A DNA stretch of 51,985 nt, from assembly GCA_018384375.1 (NCBI GenBank), contig JAHAYJ010000081.1, positions 1 to 51,985 on the forward strand. The letters run 5' to 3'. Made by a program: the position numbers and the translations under genes. Position 1 is the stretch's first letter; every line of letters starts with the position of its first letter. The DNA comes from Lachnospiraceae bacterium (GTDB lineage: Bacteria > Bacillota > Clostridia > Lachnospirales > Lachnospiraceae). This document shows, one piece after another, positions 20,599 through 42,159 of the stretch. The notes under the pieces were generated by a model that saw nothing but the letters and a program-made list of their open reading frames with translations, was not told where the DNA came from and did no database searches.

Positions 20599-23325
20599 TT
20601 AATAATGCATAAAATCTTTTTCTCTGAGAATAATCATATCCTCTTCATCATACCGCTTCCCAAGAAGTATATCAAAAAAGTGCTTGGGAGTCTTCTTATC
20701 TGCATAATAGATTGCCTCATCGATCAACTCTTCTATCTCTGCAAGTGTAACCTCGTGATCACTGGTCTGCATATCAGCTATTCTGGTATGGAGCGCCAGA
20801 ATACCTAATTCATCAATAGAATATTCTTGATCAAGTGCATATTTTTGAGCATATCTTACAAGAGTCTGATCGTCCAGTGCTTCTACATCGACACGCAAGT
20901 TAAATACCTCTGCCAATGCCGGATATTTTACAAGATATGCATTTATCTTTTCTTTCTTGTCTTCAAGAAGAACAATAATACCCTTTTCTTCCTGGTTCAG
21001 TTCCTTAAGGAGCTGGTCCACAGCAGCCTTCTTCATGGCACAGGCACCTTCAATAATCAGTGCTCCTCCGGAAAGCTTACCTAATGTAGCGCCAATATCT
21101 TTCTTGTTCATGGTAGCACCGGAAATCTTCGCTACCTTGCCGGAAAAATTGCTGTCAGAAAGCTGCACTTCCTTGACAAACAGCTTGGCAAGTGCAGTTG
21201 TTTCAGCACTTTCCTCTCCGGTGACGATTACATTTCCCGTATAGGATGCCATACTGATATTATCCAAAACGGTTACGATCTGTCTTCTGGTACGTTTATG
21301 GTGAATAAATGGAGCAAATTGCTCTTTTTCACTATCCGACATTTCTCTGACTTTGCTTTGATTTTCAACAGTCTTATCCTGTTCAGAATCTTCTTGCTTC
21401 TCTTTGCCGTTTGAGGACTCTGTTTTTAATTCCTCTTCCTGAACAGAATTGTCTGCTTCCTCCTCCTCATCCGAATTCTGCTCTTCTGAATTCTTATCTT
21501 CTGAATCCTTCTCCTCCAAATCAGCTTCCTGTTCCGCTTCAGAAACTTCTAAAATTTCATCTTCTTCCTGAATTTCCTCAAGTATTTCTACTTCATCTGC
21601 AGGTTCTGTTTCTATTTCTATTGTTTCCTCAGCCGGAGGAAGGTCTTTTTTCTCTTTCTCGGCGGCTTTTCTTTCAATATCAGCTACCTTTACCACCTTA
21701 GGTTTTTCCTGGTTCGCTTTCACCTTTTCTTCCTTAATGGCAGCAGTAACCATGGCCTTTTCCAATTCTTCCAGAAGACCTGTTTTCGTTGATTCATCAA
21801 AATCTGCAAAAAGAGCATCCGTCTGCTGACGAACACGCTTGCGAATTTCTTCCATTCGCCTACGTTCATTTTCCTGTTTTGTCTTCTCCCACTCAGCCAT
21901 AACATCTTCTATGCTAAGCTGACCTGTGATCTGCTTTTCTATCTTTTCCTGCTCAGGCATCACAAGTGAAATCTGCCCATCATATTCCTGAGAAAGAATA
22001 TGATCAAAACCGGAAGGTTTATGGAATGTTCGGATCACGCCGGTGTTGCTGACTGCCGGGTTAGGGCTTGCTGCTGAGATTACTGTCCTGGCAGATTCTT
22101 CCATCGGCGTCTTAATAGGTTCAAAGGGTGTCTTAACTCCGTTCTGTTCTACCAGTTCCGAAACTACATCCTGGATATTCACTTCCTCTGTATTACCAAA
22201 GAATACCTCCTCAGAAGCTTCTTCAGATACTTTATGTTCAACCCCCGGAACAATATCCTCATGCACTTTTTCACCAAGATCCTCTTCTGTGATAAGCTTC
22301 ATTTCATCTGTATCCTGCCTGAGGGCAACCTGCGGCTCTTCCGATACAGCCTCTGCTTCCTTAGCATCAGAAGCATGTTCCGGATCATCTAACCCCTTTA
22401 CAGGCTCATACACCTGTGTTTTTAAGGTCTCATTGGTTTCTTCAACCGGCATCTGCTGCGTCTTGTTTTTATCCAGGAATTCCTTCATACTCTCTGCAAG
22501 CTCTTTTTGAAGATTGATGGTATTATACTGGCTGACATCAACCGTCTTGACCTCAATATCCATATCCTTTCCGGGTAATTCCTGCGTGCTTCCGGTCAAT
22601 ATATTTTCCTGAAGGCTGAACTCATCCTCGTCTTCTTCCTCAGTTTCCTTGTCGGCTTCCTCTTGAATTGCCTGCTGGTCAACTGCATAGTCAGACGTAA
22701 CAAAACCACCGTTTTGTTTCATCAGCTCATACTGAATTTCCTGTTCCTGCGTCAAGGGCTCATGAAGCTTTTTCAGTTCCAGTGCTTTTAGTACATACCT
22801 ACCCTCTTTGAACATAAGGAATATTTCATTACATTGCTCTATGCATTGGGATTCCAATCCAACTCTGTGATAAAGATATGCAAGCTCATACAACCATTTC
22901 TCACGATACTCGTGTTTTTTAAGCTCCTCCAGAACCTCTATTCTTTCTTCCAGGCTTACTTCCTGTGCTTCATACAACTTATATAATAGGACATATCTTC
23001 CGCTATCATTTGGCGCCAGCTGTACAAACTCTTTATAATATTCAAGAGCCTGTACATATTCTCCCAGCTTAATGGAAAGCTCACAAAGAGAATAAACAAT
23101 CAGTCTTCCCCCTGAATGTCTGTCATAAGCCAAAAGCAGAATATCTCTGCTATCCTCATATCTTCTGTTAATTTTATACAAATCGCTGATGGTGCAAAGC
23201 ATCATGACACTCTTTACCCTGCGCCAATCAATTGTATCTGCTATCTTAGCAGCTTCTGCGTATTCTCCTTCTGCAATCAGAGATTTAATCTCATCTGCAC
23301 GTACTTTGTATTCGTATTTATCCAA
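20599..23325 (-). CDS. TPR-like protein with acidic linker and degenerate AAA+ domain
   Basis: 908 aa if started at TTG 23325 (GAGG eight bases upstream); GTG 23334 is the alternative but lies inside that ribosome site. Residues 1-210 look like tetratricopeptide helices (IVYSLCELSIKLGEYVQALE). Residues ~215-680 are acidic, Glu/Ser/Lys-rich and low complexity. The last ~220 residues resemble a SpoVK/CbbX-type AAA+ module: NVIVTGEESAETTALAKLF sits where the P-loop should be but lacks GKT, then GGALIIEG and IIVLLEDKKEKI. I do not recognise a named function. It probably acts as a scaffold, co-transcribed with glgB. Confidence 0.7.
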   Translation of the reverse strand: MDKYEYKVRADEIKSLIAEGEYAEAAKIADTIDWRRVKSVMMLCTISDLYKINRRYEDSRDILLLAYDRHSGGRLIVYSLCELSIKLGEYVQALEYYKEFVQLAPNDSGRYVLLYKLYEAQEVSLEERIEVLEELKKHEYREKWLYELAYLYHRVGLESQCIEQCNEIFLMFKEGRYVLKALELKKLHEPLTQEQEIQYELMKQNGGFVTSDYAVDQQAIQEEADKETEEEDEDEFSLQENILTGSTQELPGKDMDIEVKTVDVSQYNTINLQKELAESMKEFLDKNKTQQMPVEETNETLKTQVYEPVKGLDDPEHASDAKEAEAVSEEPQVALRQDTDEMKLITEEDLGEKVHEDIVPGVEHKVSEEASEEVFFGNTEEVNIQDVVSELVEQNGVKTPFEPIKTPMEESARTVISAASPNPAVSNTGVIRTFHKPSGFDHILSQEYDGQISLVMPEQEKIEKQITGQLSIEDVMAEWEKTKQENERRRMEEIRKRVRQQTDALFADFDESTKTGLLEELEKAMVTAAIKEEKVKANQEKPKVVKVADIERKAAEKEKKDLPPAEETIEIETEPADEVEILEEIQEEDEILEVSEAEQEADLEEKDSEDKNSEEQNSDEEEEADNSVQEEELKTESSNGKEKQEDSEQDKTVENQSKVREMSDSEKEQFAPFIHHKRTRRQIVTVLDNISMASYTGNVIVTGEESAETTALAKLFVKEVQLSDSNFSGKVAKISGATMNKKDIGATLGKLSGGALIIEGACAMKKAAVDQLLKELNQEEKGIIVLLEDKKEKINAYLVKYPALAEVFNLRVDVEALDDQTLVRYAQKYALDQEYSIDELGILALHTRIADMQTSDHEVTLAEIEELIDEAIYYADKKTPKHFFDILLGKRYDEEDMIILREKDFMHY

Positions 23326-23384
23326 GGTACTCACCTCATACTTATTTTCACTTCAAGGCATAAACAGCCTATTTTCATTTTCTA

Positions 23385-23493: not shown

Positions 23494-24372
23494 TCAGAGC
23501 AGGTCACTGAGTCTTGCAAATTGTGCAAGAGTAAGAGCTTCTCCTCTGATCGTCTGACTAAGCCCCATTTGATCAAGTGCCATACTGACCTCCTGCCGGC
23601 TTACATGAATCATCATTCCATCCTTATCTGCATAAGAAAGCCCGTTTGCCAGTGCATTTACCAGTGTCTTCCTTCTCTGATTAAAGGCTGCACGGATAAT
23701 GGAAAACATCTTTCTCTCATCATCTGTCTTAACAGGCGGTTCTTCAAATCTGGTCAGACGAATAACAGCACTTCCCACATTTGGTCTCGGCATAAAGCAG
23801 GTCGGCGGCACATTCAGCATAATTTCCGGTCTCGCATAATACTGTACCGCAAGGCTTAATGCTCCATAGTCCTTCGTTCCCGGCCCCACTTGCATTCTGT
23901 CTGCCACTTCCTTCTGCACCATGATCGTGATACTGGAAAGCGGCACACGACTTTCAAACAATCCCATAATAATCGGTGTTGTAATATAATAAGGCAGATT
24001 AGCAACCACTTTGATCGGCTTGCCTTCGTTTCGCTCTTTCACAAGTCTGTTGAGATCTACCTTTAAAATATCCTCATTTACTATACTTACATTTTCATAT
24101 CCTTTTAAGGTTTCCTCAAGAATAGGAATCAGATTTTTGTCAATTTCAACCGCTATTACTTCCCTTGCATTTTCTGCAAGATACTGCGTCATTGTTCCAA
24201 TTCCCGGTCCGATCTCAACAACACAGTCCTCCCTCGTAATTTCAGCGGAATCAATGATTTTGTCCAGGATGTTTGCGTCGATCAAAAAATTCTGTCCATA
24301 TTTCTTTTGAAAATTGAAGCCATACTTCTGAATTACCTCTGCAGTAGCCGTAGGCGTCCCCAAATATGCCAT
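23494..24372 (-). CDS. rsmA: 16S rRNA dimethyladenosine transferase RsmA/KsgA
   Basis: 292 aa, normal length. The SAM-binding motif VVEIGPGIGTMTQYL and the catalytic NLPYYITTPI motif are intact, as is the C-terminal helical domain with FNQRRKTLVNAL. It dimethylates the two adjacent adenosines near the 3' end of 16S rRNA during late 30S maturation. GAGGAGAATATTT precedes the ATG. The order tatD then rsmA, 12 nt apart, is common in Firmicutes. Confidence 0.95.
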   Translation of the reverse strand: MAYLGTPTATAEVIQKYGFNFQKKYGQNFLIDANILDKIIDSAEITREDCVVEIGPGIGTMTQYLAENAREVIAVEIDKNLIPILEETLKGYENVSIVNEDILKVDLNRLVKERNEGKPIKVVANLPYYITTPIIMGLFESRVPLSSITIMVQKEVADRMQVGPGTKDYGALSLAVQYYARPEIMLNVPPTCFMPRPNVGSAVIRLTRFEEPPVKTDDERKMFSIIRAAFNQRRKTLVNALANGLSYADKDGMMIHVSRQEVSMALDQMGLSQTIRGEALTLAQFARLSDLL

Positions 24373-24384
24373 AAATATTCTCCT

Positions 24385-25164
24385 CTATTTCAAATGGTAA
24401 AAGTTCTTTGCATTATCGCTCGTAATACGAAGCACCTCTTCCTTAGTAATTCCCTTTAGCTTCGCAAGCTTCTCTGCCACAAAATCAATGTATCCGGACT
24501 GATTTCTTTTTCCCCGGTAAGGCTCCGGCGCCAGATAGGGGCAATCTGTTTCCAGCAGAATTTTCTCCATCGGAATTATTTCCACTGCTTCTACCAGTTT
24601 CCGGGCATTTTTAAATGTAAGTACACCGCCTATTCCAAAATAATACCCCATGGAAAGATATTCCCTTGCTATCTCCTTTGAATAAGAAAAACAATGAATC
24701 ACACCACCCGTCTTATCCTTGTCCCATTCCTTTAAAATCTCCAAGGTGTCCTCCGCCGCATCTCTGGAATGAATAATGACCGGAAGTTTCACTTCACTTG
24801 CCAACGCAAGTTGTCTGATAAACCATTTTTTTTGTATTTCACGATCCGGCTCCGGCCAATAATAATCAAGCCCAATCTCTCCAATTGCTACAATATCTTT
24901 TTGGACAGACGCCTTTTTAAGCCATAGCATGTCTTCTTCCTTCAGTTCTTCCGTTTCCGACGGATGAATACCGACAGCACCATATAAAAAGGGATAACGT
25001 TGTACAAGCTCTATTGTTTTTTTTGTGGAAGCTATACTTGCTCCGACATTTACAATAAACTCTACTCCCTGCTCCTTCATTTTCCAGAGCAATTCCTCCC
25101 TGTCCTCATCAAAAGCTTCATCATCATAATGCGCATGTGTATCAAAGATCATATTCTGCCCCAT
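24385..25164 (-). CDS. tatD: TatD family metal-dependent hydrolase
   Basis: 259 aa. The metal ligands of the amidohydrolase-type barrel are visible: DTHAHYDDEAF at the N-terminus, GEIGLDYYW, HSRDAAEDT, HCFSYS and ETDCPYLAP. TatD-type proteins are Mg-dependent 3'-5' nucleases or D-aminoacyl-tRNA-quality enzymes. A second ATG four codons downstream (25152) is also possible; both have G-rich sites. It starts the unit with rsmA. Confidence 0.92.
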   Translation of the reverse strand: MGQNMIFDTHAHYDDEAFDEDREELLWKMKEQGVEFIVNVGASIASTKKTIELVQRYPFLYGAVGIHPSETEELKEEDMLWLKKASVQKDIVAIGEIGLDYYWPEPDREIQKKWFIRQLALASEVKLPVIIHSRDAAEDTLEILKEWDKDKTGGVIHCFSYSKEIAREYLSMGYYFGIGGVLTFKNARKLVEAVEIIPMEKILLETDCPYLAPEPYRGKRNQSGYIDFVAEKLAKLKGITKEEVLRITSDNAKNFYHLK

Positions 25165-38163: not shown

Positions 38164-38577
38164 CTACAATACCATAATTAATGTACCTGCAGTAATAAGA
38201 ACAGCTCCCACAAGAGACTTTGCTGTAAAGTTTTCATGAAGAAATACAAATGCCAATACTAATGTAATCACCACACTCAGCTTGTCTACCGGCACCACTT
38301 TGGAAGCTTCCCCAATCTGCAATGCCCTGTAATAGCAGAGCCAGGATGCTCCTGTAGCCAGTCCTGACAAAATTAAAAACAACCAGCTCTTTTTACTGAT
38401 TGCCGATATTCCTCCCTGTGTATTTGTTAGGAAAACCATTCCCCATGCCATGACAAGTACTACCACTGTACGAATTGCTGTTGCCAGATTGGAATTGACC
38501 CCTTCAATGCCTACCTTGGCAAGTATAGATGTCAGCGCTGCAAACACTGCAGATAAAAGTGCAAATACAAACCACAT
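38164..38577 (-). CDS. EamA family single-repeat transporter
   Basis: 137 aa with four to five helices, half of a usual DMT transporter, which fits small EamA proteins that work as dimers. It starts MWFVFALLSAVFAALTSILAKVG and has VVPVDKLSVVITLVLAFVFL near the end, the conserved EamA pattern. AAAGGAGAATGAGGTC precedes the ATG. The substrate is unknown. Confidence 0.82.
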   Translation of the reverse strand: MWFVFALLSAVFAALTSILAKVGIEGVNSNLATAIRTVVVLVMAWGMVFLTNTQGGISAISKKSWLFLILSGLATGASWLCYYRALQIGEASKVVPVDKLSVVITLVLAFVFLHENFTAKSLVGAVLITAGTLIMVL

Positions 38578-39179: not shown

Positions 39180-39776
39180 TTATGAAAATTTTCTGATCTT
39201 TAAATAAATTCCTCTCTCATCCGCAATCCTTTGGCATTCCTTAATTTCCTCCTCAGGCAGAACATCCACGATAGAAAACTGAACATGCTCAAAAGCTCCC
39301 TTTGCCAATTCGGCAAATTCAAGAAGCGCCGGAAATGCATTCTCAAACTGAGGTCTTGTCACCTCCTGATATTTCTCTGCAGTAGGTGCATTTAAGCTGA
39401 CAGATACACTGTCTATGACTTTGGCAAGCTCAGGAATAATATTGCGCTTATGATACAGGTTTGCCAGTCCGTTTGTATTCAGCCGGATTTTTATATTCTG
39501 CTTTTCCTTTGCATAAGCAGCACTGGCAAGCAGATTGTCAAGTGCACAGGTCGGCTCTCCGTAACCACAATATACTAATTCATCATAGCCCTTGAAATCG
39601 AATGCATCCATAGCCTGTCTGATTTCTTCTAACGTAGGTTCACTTTTATGCCACAGATTATCTGCCTCCCCTACGCTGTCCTTGTGTGAGCGAATGCAGA
39701 ACTGACAATTGCAGTCACAGCGATTCGTAATATTTGCATAAACCTGGTTTTTATACGTGTATAAAATATCTGCCAA
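39180..39776 (-). CDS. Small radical SAM protein paired with an ECF S component
   Basis: 198 aa from TTG 39776 (AGGAGG seven bases upstream). The cluster motif is CX3CX2C: Cys20, Cys24, Cys27, with an extra Cys22. YCGYGEPT resembles the SAM-binding GGE region, and KIRLNTNGLA the following strand. No auxiliary cluster or extra domain is present. I recall this protein family being defined as a partner of the neighbouring membrane protein family (TIGR04100/TIGR04002 pairing); the reaction is unknown. It follows the S-component gene by 11 nt. Confidence 0.82.
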   Translation of the reverse strand: MADILYTYKNQVYANITNRCDCNCQFCIRSHKDSVGEADNLWHKSEPTLEEIRQAMDAFDFKGYDELVYCGYGEPTCALDNLLASAAYAKEKQNIKIRLNTNGLANLYHKRNIIPELAKVIDSVSVSLNAPTAEKYQEVTRPQFENAFPALLEFAELAKGAFEHVQFSIVDVLPEEEIKECQRIADERGIYLKIRKFS

Positions 39777-39787
39777 AATGAAGCCTC

Positions 39788-40339
39788 CTACTCAAAAAAT
39801 CTTCCCTTAATATGCGCCTTGTCCAACGCAACTCCAAAAATAAGAAAAAAGATTGCACTACCACCGGACTGTATCAGGCTTCCTGCCATGGATGTCAGGA
39901 AAACAGACCATGTTCCAAAGATAAGATATTCTGCCAGGAAATAGCTGATTCCCGAGATAAAATATGCGACAATTGCTGCAATAACATTTCTGGTTGATAC
40001 AATCTTATTTGATTTGTTGGTAAAAGGAAGGGTAATCAGCATCTTGATAATGATGGTCGCCGGTGCCCACATAGGTGCTGTCAGGAGATCTGCAAGTCCT
40101 CCTCCGATTGCAGCTGCCGCAAGGGCATAGGGTCTCGGAAGCAGCACTGCTGCCAGATAAATCAGAGAATCACCAAAATGAATATACCCTCCGTTTGTTC
40201 CAACAGGAATATGACAGATATACGCTGTCATAAGCGTAATCAGTGCTGCCATGATGCCTGCCGTTGCAAGGTATCTGATTTTCTCACTTTCCTTTCCCTG
40301 TATTTTACTTTCATATTTTATTTCTGTCCGTGTACTCAT
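39788..40339 (-). CDS. ECF transporter S component (TIGR04002-like)
   Basis: 183 aa with a ~20-residue cytoplasmic N-terminus and about six hydrophobic helices (YLATAGIMAALITLMTAYIC, YIHFGDSLIYLAAVLLP), the S-component pattern with an acidic loop GGGLADLL. Such proteins bind a vitamin or micronutrient and need the shared EcfAA'T module, not present here. Position directly after pyridoxamine kinase and before the radical SAM gene suggests a vitamin B6-related ligand; that is inference. AGGAGGAGCTAACA precedes the ATG. Confidence 0.83.
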   Translation of the reverse strand: MSTRTEIKYESKIQGKESEKIRYLATAGIMAALITLMTAYICHIPVGTNGGYIHFGDSLIYLAAVLLPRPYALAAAAIGGGLADLLTAPMWAPATIIIKMLITLPFTNKSNKIVSTRNVIAAIVAYFISGISYFLAEYLIFGTWSVFLTSMAGSLIQSGGSAIFFLIFGVALDKAHIKGRFFE

Positions 40340-40351
40340 TGTTAGCTCCTC

Positions 40352-41200
40352 CTATAGTAAGCGGGATAAATACTTTTCAAAGTAAACCCCATGATTGCGG
40401 GGAATGTTTTTTCTTGAAGCCTCCTCAATTGCCTCCTGCAAAAAAGAAACTGCCTTTTCCATTGCCTGGTCTGCAGACAAGCCGTTTATAAGGGCACCGC
40501 AGACAACTGATGCAAACAGATCTCCGGTTCCTGAAAAACCCTTTCCTGTATACGGTGTCTCCAGATAAGTACTTTTTCCCCCGGAAACGGCAAGATTGCC
40601 AATCATTTCCTTTTCTGCCTCTTTTCGTAAAATTCCTGTCACAATCACCGTTTGTTGCACATGCGCCCTGCCAAGAAGCTTTTCACAAATATCCTGTATT
40701 CTCTTGACATAGTCCTGCTCCTTTGCATAATTCGTTATCTTCTCATAGCTTACCTCTGCAAGAAAACACAACTCCGTCAGATTTGGTGTGATCACATCCG
40801 CCTCCAAAGTGAGTTTTTTCATTTCCTGTAGAAGTTCATTACTGAAGATATGAAAGCCTTTACCATGATCTCCCATAACAGGATCGGCCAGATATAAGGT
40901 ATTCCGCTTCCGAAATTCCTTTAGGAAAAAGAGAACCTTTTCAATCTGCAAAGGGCTGGCAAGGTATCCGGAATAAATGCCATCAAAAGATACCTCCATC
41001 TTTTTCCATTGCTCCGTAAAAAAATCCATACGATCTGTAAAATCATCACAATAATAATTTTGAAATCCTGTCTGTGCAGACAAAACGGCTGTCGGAAGCG
41101 GACAAGCCTGAATACCCATTACGGAAATAACAGGAATTGCCGCTGTTAGGGAACATTTCCCGAAGCCTGACAGGTCATTGATCAAAGCAACTTTTTTCAT
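40352..41200 (-). CDS. Pyridoxamine/pyridoxal kinase
   Basis: 282 aa, PdxK/PdxY size. The ribokinase-fold motifs are all present: INDLSGFGKCSLTAAIPV, the DPVMGDHGK phosphate loop, ITPNLTELCFL and the catalytic GFSGTGDLFAS (Asp as base). It phosphorylates B6 vitamers for salvage to PLP in the cytoplasm. The start has GGGAGAATTTTAGC. It is first in the operon with the S component and radical SAM gene and lies behind an inverted repeat at 41251-41289. A bifunctional hydroxymethylpyrimidine role is less likely. Confidence 0.9.
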   Translation of the reverse strand: MKKVALINDLSGFGKCSLTAAIPVISVMGIQACPLPTAVLSAQTGFQNYYCDDFTDRMDFFTEQWKKMEVSFDGIYSGYLASPLQIEKVLFFLKEFRKRNTLYLADPVMGDHGKGFHIFSNELLQEMKKLTLEADVITPNLTELCFLAEVSYEKITNYAKEQDYVKRIQDICEKLLGRAHVQQTVIVTGILRKEAEKEMIGNLAVSGGKSTYLETPYTGKGFSGTGDLFASVVCGALINGLSADQAMEKAVSFLQEAIEEASRKNIPRNHGVYFEKYLSRLL

Positions 41201-41250
41201 GCTAAAATTCTCCCGGGGAATTTTGTATTATGTATAATCTATCTTATATT

Positions 41251-41289
41251 TGGTCTTATAAAAATATCCAGTTCTTAAATATTAGACCA
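41251..41289. repeat. TGGTCT...AGACCA inverted repeat upstream of pdxK, possible operator
   Basis: Six-base arms TGGTCT (41251-41256) and AGACCA (41284-41289) separated by 27 nt, with further GGTA/TACC and CTGGA-like copies around. It lies 50-90 nt before the pdxK start, where an activator would bind. TGGTCTA-like half-sites are, as I recall, reported for MocR-type PdxR regulators of vitamin B6 genes. No regulator gene is in the window. Confidence 0.35.
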
Positions 41290-41313
41290 TACCAGTTCGA
41301 GAATCTACATTTC

Positions 41314-41376: not shown

Positions 41377-42159
41377 ATGGAATATATTTTTTATCTGTTA
41401 GCCGGTTTAGGTGCCGGTGCAGTCACCGGACTTGCCGGCTTATCTGCTGCAGTTGTTATTACTCCCATACTTGTCAGCTTATGTGGCTGGGCTTCCTATG
41501 ATGCAGTCACAGTAGCGCTTGCATCCGATGTGCTGGCAAGCATGTTATCTGCATACACCTACTATAAGAACAAAAATATTGATATTAAGCGCGGTAGTCT
41601 GGTATCTCTGACCGCCTTTATCGGAACAGTGATCGGAAGCTATTGCGGATATCTGTTCAGTCAGTCACAATCGGACGGACTTGGCTACCTTTCCATGCTG
41701 ACAACTATCTTCCTGGGTATTAAGTTTCTTTTTAAGCCGATTACCGGGGGAACAGATGAAACACAGAGCATTTCCTCCTCAAAGGAATTAAAGGAGACAG
41801 CCCTTGCCATGCTTTGTGGCTGCGGAATCGGATGGGTATGCGGTTTTACGGGAAGTGGCGGCGGCATTCTGATGCTGACCGTATTTACAATTCTCTTACA
41901 GTATAATCTAAAAATCGCAGTTGGAACCAGCACCATGATCATGACACTTGTTGCCCTGACCGGCACTGTCAGCCACATTTCCATGGGCGCAAAAATATAT
42001 CCCTTTCCAATGATTATAGTTGTTGCATCCTGCCTGTTTGCAGCTGCTGTTTCCGCACGTTTTGCAAACAGATGTGAAATCAGAAGGCTGAACAAGGTTG
42101 TAGGACTTACACTTCTCATTTTGGGGATACTTACAATTGCAATTAAGTTATTTTCTTAA
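41377..42159 (+). CDS. TauE/SafE family (TSUP) sulfite/organosulfonate permease
   Basis: 260 aa, about seven to eight helices. The TSUP start GAGAVTGLAGLSAAVVITPI and the second-half CGFTGSGGGILMLTVF repeat are clear. Members export or import sulfite, sulfonates or related anions across the membrane. AGGAGAGTGATTTAA precedes the ATG. It is convergent with the EamA/ABC operon, 5 nt between stops. A sulfur role together with the ABC operon is suggestive only. Confidence 0.85.
   Translation: MEYIFYLLAGLGAGAVTGLAGLSAAVVITPILVSLCGWASYDAVTVALASDVLASMLSAYTYYKNKNIDIKRGSLVSLTAFIGTVIGSYCGYLFSQSQSDGLGYLSMLTTIFLGIKFLFKPITGGTDETQSISSSKELKETALAMLCGCGIGWVCGFTGSGGGILMLTVFTILLQYNLKIAVGTSTMIMTLVALTGTVSHISMGAKIYPFPMIIVVASCLFAAAVSARFANRCEIRRLNKVVGLTLLILGILTIAIKLFS

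Follow-up and report, generated by a model that had tools for sequence, protein, structure and literature searches.

Described relatives of the locus

Among the vitamin B6 salvage systems described to date, the nearest to the one considered here are the PdxR-PdxK-PdxU loci, for instance PdxR-PdxKU of Streptococcus (PMC11619246). In them a MocR regulator of the PdxR type, a B6 kinase and a PF07155 S component of an energy-coupling factor (ECF) transporter constitute one regulated unit. Such a set is also met in a Lachnospiraceae bacterium, an anaerobe of a family associated with the gut (GenBank assembly GCA_018384375.1), in the 51,985 nucleotides (nt) of contig JAHAYJ010000081.1 that were analysed and are here called the window, where genes for the kinase, the S component and a small radical S-adenosylmethionine (SAM) protein follow one another. 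The departures are that the window adds the radical SAM gene and that its pdxR is elsewhere in the genome instead of adjacent. The system is a PdxR-PdxK-PdxU salvage locus in variant form, enlarged by one enzyme. It is very probable that its three genes make up an operon for B6 salvage controlled by a regulator of the PdxR type, because of the co-occurrence of the three genes, an operator, a PdxR encoded by the host and the lack of a PdxS or PdxH match in its genome; these, like the gene order and the family identities, come directly from computation. The role of the added enzyme is more a matter for conjecture. Our tentative proposal for the operon as a whole, to be held with appreciably less than even confidence, is that the radical SAM protein converts pyridoxine 5'-phosphate (PNP) and/or pyridoxamine 5'-phosphate (PMP) to pyridoxal 5'-phosphate (PLP) independently of O2.

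Two of the families involved are already on record. The radical SAM family TIGR04100 and the S component family TIGR04002 are listed in NCBIfam without function, both being marked 'hypoth_equivalog', and an earlier, sequence-only reading of the window was right that no function is recorded for the pair. The two window proteins, encoded side by side, exceed both curated cut-offs; the link to a B6 kinase, to PdxR and to an operator is what is added here. The main texts of the open-licence literature yielded no paper naming these TIGR models and no title or abstract opening that joins radical SAM to B6 salvage; one paper contains both words (PMC6522883). Since the families are known to NCBI and no such title or abstract opening was found, we class the locus as a variant. 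Of the 'candidate new vitamin B6 salvage system' of the sequence-only reading, the salvage part stands on the kinase link, the B6-type S component and the PdxR-type site and regulator; the newness is curtailed by families that were on record beforehand.

Organization of the operon

The features with which the argument is concerned are the following (aa, amino acids).

40352-41200, minus strand: B6 (pyridoxamine/pyridoxal-type) kinase, first gene of the operon; 282 aa, PRK07105 family
39788-40339, minus strand: ECF transporter S component, probably for B6-vitamer uptake; 183 aa, TIGR04002 / PF07155
39180-39776, minus strand: small radical SAM protein, candidate O2-independent PNP/PMP-to-PLP enzyme; 198 aa, TTG start, TIGR04100 (rSAM_pair_X)
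41251-41296, minus strand: MocR/PdxR-type operator ACTGG-N19-ACTGG-N14-CCA; 13/13 scored letters, 5' end 96 nt ahead of the kinase start codon (ATG)
41251-41256, unstranded: TGGTCT half of an inverted repeat, within the operator
41284-41289, unstranded: AGACCA half of the inverted repeat, within the operator

Transcription would proceed from kinase to S component to radical SAM gene, with intergenic gaps of 12 and 11 nt, so that the tight spacing of 11-12 nt read earlier is confirmed from the coordinates. A stretch resembling a ribosome site precedes each gene, GGGAG for the kinase and AGGAGG for each of the other two.

The kinase, the S component and the nature of the ligand

The kinase matches PF08543, has 3mbh as its best solved relative (E 1e-57) and, with 271.3 bits against a cut-off of 231, belongs to the curated 'pyridoxamine kinase' family NF005491/PRK07105. 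A substrate loop of SNHT or STHT is important in experimentally characterised B6 kinases. The loop is SNHT in 3mbh and STHT in 3h74; the window kinase has neither, its motif being SAQTGF where others have SNHTGF. Of the 60 loci at which the loop was read, 18 have Q and 42 H, and the division follows the radical SAM clades described below: mostly S/T-A/N-QTG in the clade to which the window belongs, mostly SNHTG in the other kinase-linked clade.

The S component is well above the cut-offs of both TIGR04002 (228.8 bits against 120) and PF07155 (68.3 against 26.7). At E<=1 it has a single relative of solved structure, chain S of 4hzu, HmpT/PdxU2 of Lactobacillus brevis, likewise a PF07155 protein, to which the similarity is weak (E 3e-4). 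Within the limits of so weak a match, the alignment pairs W91, Y133, S150 and Q157 of the window protein with the identical HmpT residues W76, Y120, S136 and Q143. Of the six pocket residues given for HmpT (PMC4860826), the same alignment keeps Y120 and Q143, leaves Q87 unaligned and replaces Glu41 by Asp, His84 by Lys and Asn140 by Ser, which correspond to D57, K99 and S154 of the window protein. Across the S components Lys99 and Tyr133 never vary, and Trp91 hardly does. There is also co-variation of the pockets: D57/Q157 accompanies Q-kinases at 19 loci and N/E accompanies H-kinases at 10, with four exceptions. Co-variation between unrelated proteins suggests a shared ligand that comes in two flavours, though ancestry of the clades alone could produce it.

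What, then, is the ligand? That it is a different small cyclic compound, for example hydroxymethylpyrimidine (HMP), the pyrimidine of thiamine, with the kinase and S component serving thiamine salvage, seems very unlikely. It would account for the glutamine in the loop, a feature that the window kinase has in common with ThiD, and the 4hzu protein was first named HmpT; the same protein was found to carry pyridoxamine, which was extracted from it (PMC4860826). The model for HMP phosphate kinase reaches 50 bits on the window kinase against a cut-off of 205, well short of how NF005491 fares, and Rfam found no thiamine pyrophosphate (TPP) riboswitch in the window or at the 20 TIGR04002 loci scanned, PdxR and its operator being present instead.

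Queuine salvage was the first lead to be followed and was rejected on Pfam family, PDB matches and riboswitch absence. QueL and QueT furnish a precedent in gut Firmicutes for a radical SAM enzyme working with an ECF S component, and the PDB includes a structure of QueL. The idea that the window protein is a QueL-like queuine lyase with a QueT/QrtT S component is nevertheless scarcely credible: no queuosine enzyme is among the eight PDB matches at E<=10, the S component matched PF07155 only whereas QrtT, described together with QueL, is given as PF12822 (PMC11130926), no preQ1 riboswitch turned up in the window or at the same 20 loci, and there remain the kinase and the link to PdxR. The sequence-only reading had itself named the outcome that would count against it, namely a pair found mostly without pdxK and together with genes of another vitamin. 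The survey did not bear this out: 24 of 26 TIGR04002 genes adjoin the kinase gene (from coordinates and loci), and no TPP or preQ1 riboswitch came to light at 20 of those 26 loci or in the window.

The distribution of PdxS, the synthesis enzyme looked for, points the same way. It was surveyed in 250 genomes of the host's family (by inference Lachnospiraceae), a sample used below as well and in which the co-occurrence tests ignore shared ancestry. PdxS occurs in 57 of the 250, in none of the 26 with TIGR04002 as against 57 of the 224 others (p 0.001); among genomes with the radical SAM protein, the operon's S component is present in 2 of 15 that have PdxS and in 31 of 49 that do not (p 0.0009; the counts were assembled by hand). 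Avoidance of this kind is what one would expect for a B6 transporter, and the S component probably imports a B6 vitamer. The host itself probably needs B6 salvage; its genome (96% complete) has no match to PdxS, the PdxA/PdxJ route not having been searched.

Elsewhere, on a contig titled Clostridioides difficile HC132 (L258), a TIGR04002-like S component directly precedes the radical SAM gene, with neither kinase nor MocR protein recognised within 3.5 kb.

The operator and its probable regulator

The sequence-only reading likened a TGGTCT...AGACCA repeat to PdxR-type sites. The elements are there and the likeness holds; the simple palindrome does not, the two halves being part of a larger operator with two direct boxes and one inverted box. 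That arrangement is given as the commonest form of MocR operator, most such operators having a TGT or TGG core (PMC5320631). A plain count of upstream TGGWCW was unconvincing as a signal (36 against 25 in shuffles). The full pattern is a different matter. It is matched exactly at 41251-41296 and nowhere else in the 3.1 Mb host genome, and at least 11 of its 13 letters are matched in 28 of 65 upstream regions (drawn from 20 of 78 fetched regions and 44 of 80 named loci) whereas 100 dinucleotide shuffles give 0.04 on average, a test that is not independent because the pattern was read off those same sequences. Removal of a duplicate (L126/L214, Suipraeoptans, the same genome) makes it 27 of 64. 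On the 65 regions N19/N14 is the most productive spacing, with N14/N14 giving 16 and N19/N15 giving 15. With letters and spacing fixed beforehand, at least 11 of 13 letters were then matched at 15 of 48 held-out loci, compared with 0.08 in shuffles; these loci were previously unused, had a kinase or S component and were mostly of the other kinase-linked clade.

As to the regulator, the host encodes a PdxR (552 bits against a cut-off of 320) on another contig, C97, with no B6 gene recognised beside it. A MocR regulator and a recurring site, the search for which had been proposed on the basis of the sequence alone, have both been found. Among the 80 nearest named loci there are 16 with a MocR-type regulator encoded on the opposite strand; of 12 such divergent proteins tested, from these and other loci, eight exceed the PdxR cut-off and the other four score 302-320 bits against 320. 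A looser operator with the same box spacing is present at 10 of 18 divergent-MocR loci, among them that of Blautia wexlerae (L216) and L222; its pattern was written after the loci had been read, and it finds 6 of the 48 held-out ones. At L222, where this looser operator is found, the radical SAM gene is the sole recognised operon gene under PdxR.

Within the host genome, sites with two mismatches or fewer carry no meaning by themselves, since they are no more frequent (53) than in a reversed control (73). For one of the 52 others it is placement and likeness alone that have weight: it is the likest to the window operator at the unscored letters (21/33, the next best having 15), and a second PF07155 S component gene, on contig C30 (L291:5835-6416), follows 65 nt downstream of it. 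The product, which is also weakly folate-family-like, is possibly a second B6 uptake protein regulated by PdxR.

In the window the operator is situated between the operon and a divergent gene for a TauE/SafE-type membrane protein (41377-42159); that gene could accordingly also be influenced by the regulator.

Co-occurrence and gene neighbourhood

In the family survey the radical SAM protein (TIGR04100, E<=1e-50) is encoded by 64 of the 250 genomes, 48 of these matches exceeding the cut-off, with exactly one copy in each; TIGR04002 is present in 26 and the kinase in 175. The kinase accompanies the radical SAM protein in 62 of 64 genomes as against 113 of 186 others (p 2.9e-9), and the radical SAM protein is present in 20 of the 26 TIGR04002 genomes as against 44 of 224 others (p 8e-9). 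By coordinates TIGR04002 and the radical SAM gene are neighbours in all 20 genomes that have both. The kinase gene adjoins the radical SAM gene in 52 of 63 fetched regions and in the window, making 53 of 64. In the host the copy in the operon is the sole one in the genome at E<=1e-50. Of the 10 genomes outside the family with both the radical SAM and the kinase gene, 9 (families f35 and f65) have the two as neighbours, the exception being G043.

Additionally, there are four loci (L236, L237, L264 and L271) where an S component and a radical SAM gene are under a MocR regulator with no recognised kinase. These are among the grounds for considering that the operon serves B6 salvage with the radical SAM protein acting, before or after phosphorylation, on a modified or unusual B6 compound, for example by freeing a usable vitamer, and not in place of PdxH. 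Pocket residues that co-vary, and that depart from the canonical ones in the window's clade (SAQT in the kinase; D57, K99 and S154 in the S component), would fit such a substrate, as would the persistence of the kinase and radical SAM genes, minus the S component, in genomes with PdxS. On the other side, ordinary B6 proteins remain the closest relatives of both the kinase and the S component, and we know of no candidate compound; on balance we regard it as an unlikely explanation that nonetheless deserves to be kept in mind.

The radical SAM protein

The protein scores 292.2 bits against the TIGR04100 ('rSAM_pair_X') cut-off of 262, and also exceeds the cut-off (129.7) of the 'TatD-associated' family TIGR04038, with 210 bits. 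PF04055 is its sole Pfam match at E<=0.01, on which basis it is counted as having no auxiliary domain, in agreement with the earlier reading. The CX3CX2C cysteines are C20, C24 and C27, invariant over the alignment and in all three clades. TIGR04038 proteins have the same size and share the CX3CX2C and CGYGEP motifs; they differ at position 22, where Asn replaces Cys, and in a Leu that follows GEP. In several other clostridia a radical SAM protein of this superfamily is encoded beside or between tatD and ksgA. In the window tatD (24385-25164) and ksgA (23494-24372) are consecutive minus-strand genes, tatD coming first and lying about 14 kb from the radical SAM gene of the operon; no member of the superfamily is encoded between them, and no TatD gene adjoins the radical SAM gene of the operon.

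An unrooted tree of 51 radical SAM proteins (thinned from 90 rows, after L182 and then four short or odd rows had been dropped) places kinase-linked proteins in two well-supported clades and the TatD-linked and stand-alone ones in a third. It was considered that the kinase link had originated twice. That was dropped, since two changes suffice, the first affecting the TatD/stand-alone clade and the second L139 only, and with the tree unrooted one origin and two are not told apart. The extra cysteine C22 (C-x-C-x-C-x-x-C) is found in 102 of 108 radical SAM proteins with B6 context, in 35 of 51 stand-alone and in 0 of 11 TatD-linked ones, counts that leave out L182 and five duplicate loci, with other duplicate genomes perhaps remaining.

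Further members are worth recording. A relative with 44% identity on a contig titled Thermoplasmata archaeon (L250) means that the family may extend to archaea. At L182 (6284-7879) a low-complexity linker connects a radical SAM-like domain that has no cluster cysteines left with an apparent Maf domain (by eye and by clustering), and at L155 a Maf protein follows the radical SAM protein. A first clustering had given the impression of tandem radical SAM genes at a few loci. This was abandoned, as the supposed copy that was tested, at L155, is the Maf protein, probably drawn in via the radical SAM-Maf fusion of L182.

A candidate anaerobic route to PLP

The step from PNP or PMP to PLP needs a two-electron oxidation at C4', for which aerobes use O2 by way of PdxH. 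PdxH (TIGR00558) is over its cut-off in 0 of the 250 family genomes, 40 of which have weak PNPOx-like matches, and the host genome yields nothing for it at E<=0.001. It is this general absence of curated PdxH that leads us to propose the radical SAM protein for the step, together with the considerations that PdxR-type operons raise PLP supply and that radical SAM attack on an activated C-H adjacent to the aromatic ring is plausible. The analogy to PdxH would be functional only, the same overall conversion being suggested for both; in fold and chemistry the oxidase is unrelated to radical SAM proteins.

Several PdxR proteins are put into their activating form by low PLP (PMC5320631). Were this so here, apo-PdxR, made from its gene elsewhere in the genome, would activate the operon via ACTGG-N19-ACTGG-N14-CCA, a B6 vitamer would enter the cell through the TIGR04002 S component working with a shared ECF module, the PRK07105 kinase would phosphorylate it, and the radical SAM protein would perform the step that aerobes assign to PdxH. 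For this last step the 5'-deoxyadenosyl radical would abstract the C4' hydrogen of PNP and/or PMP, and the resulting ring-stabilised radical would lose one electron to yield PLP. Generalised to TIGR04100 as a whole, i.e. to an O2-independent PNP/PMP oxidase lacking an auxiliary cluster that makes PLP, under PdxR, in anaerobic gut bacteria without PdxH, the suggestion must count as rather doubtful.

A good deal weighs against it. A weak point of the proposed reaction is the want of an auxiliary cluster as electron acceptor: radical SAM enzymes known to oxidise alcohols have additional clusters, and in the window's clade no auxiliary-cluster cysteines are conserved beyond C22 and C70. The absence of PdxH cannot separate genomes with the radical SAM protein from those without, all 250 being affected. 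Nor is there association with PdxS, found in 15 of 64 radical SAM genomes and 42 of 186 others (p 0.86), so that the protein is kept also where PLP is made de novo. As 113 of the 175 kinase genomes do without it, it is not required for kinase-based salvage. In 11 of the 64 family genomes its gene is not beside the kinase, and of the 80 nearest named loci 31, some ending at contig edges, show no kinase, S component or MocR protein nearby. Outside the family the kinase is present in 10 of 68 radical SAM genomes (G157, a partial match, being left out) as against 15 of 70 radical SAM-poor ones (taken in listing order, not at random), so general co-occurrence is not seen there. The site, at 11 or more of 13 letters, is absent from 37 of the first 65 loci and from 33 of the 48 held-out ones. 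Moreover the TatD-linked clade, in a comparison leaving out four rows, has most of the same invariant residues as the kinase-linked one, although its genes have tatD and ksgA as neighbours and its genomes are mostly without the kinase. From the rarity of the kinase outside the family and from these shared residues, the radical SAM family may have a more general job.

One version of such a job is a housekeeping role in anaerobes, for which PLP is needed or which is called on when PLP is low, with the gene riding in the operon and its product not acting on B6. Residues common to the kinase-linked and TatD-linked clades would be expected of it, and it accords with the 58 of 68 radical SAM genomes outside the family that lack this kinase, with the single copy in each of the 64 family genomes and with the mixed gene contexts elsewhere. 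Against that, loci linked to PdxR repeatedly include the radical SAM gene, at L222 to the exclusion of any other recognised operon gene, and C22 distinguishes the B6-context proteins from the TatD-linked ones in the counts given above. We consider it distinctly unlikely.

If the radical SAM protein does make PLP, there would be consequences for how B6 needs are predicted. In a survey of PLP pathways about 93% of salvage-only genomes possess only a kinase, from which its authors infer salvage of pyridoxal only (PMC9997740), and a 2026 preprint on Lachnospiraceae supplied all three vitamers since some strains are without predicted activating enzymes (PMC12934955). A radical SAM protein within the operon and controlled by PdxR would alter the pyridoxal-only prediction for many gut Clostridia, and two NCBI families without function would gain a testable one. 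HemF and HemN are a precedent for separate aerobic and anaerobic steps, and B6 would join the cofactors whose last steps are so divided.

Other features of the window

Downstream of the operon, the product of 38164-38577 has 137 residues and one EamA domain, as a half-size drug/metabolite transporter. At 20599-23334 there is a protein of 911 residues that has zero Pfam matches at E<=1e-8 and, by eye, an acidic middle region.

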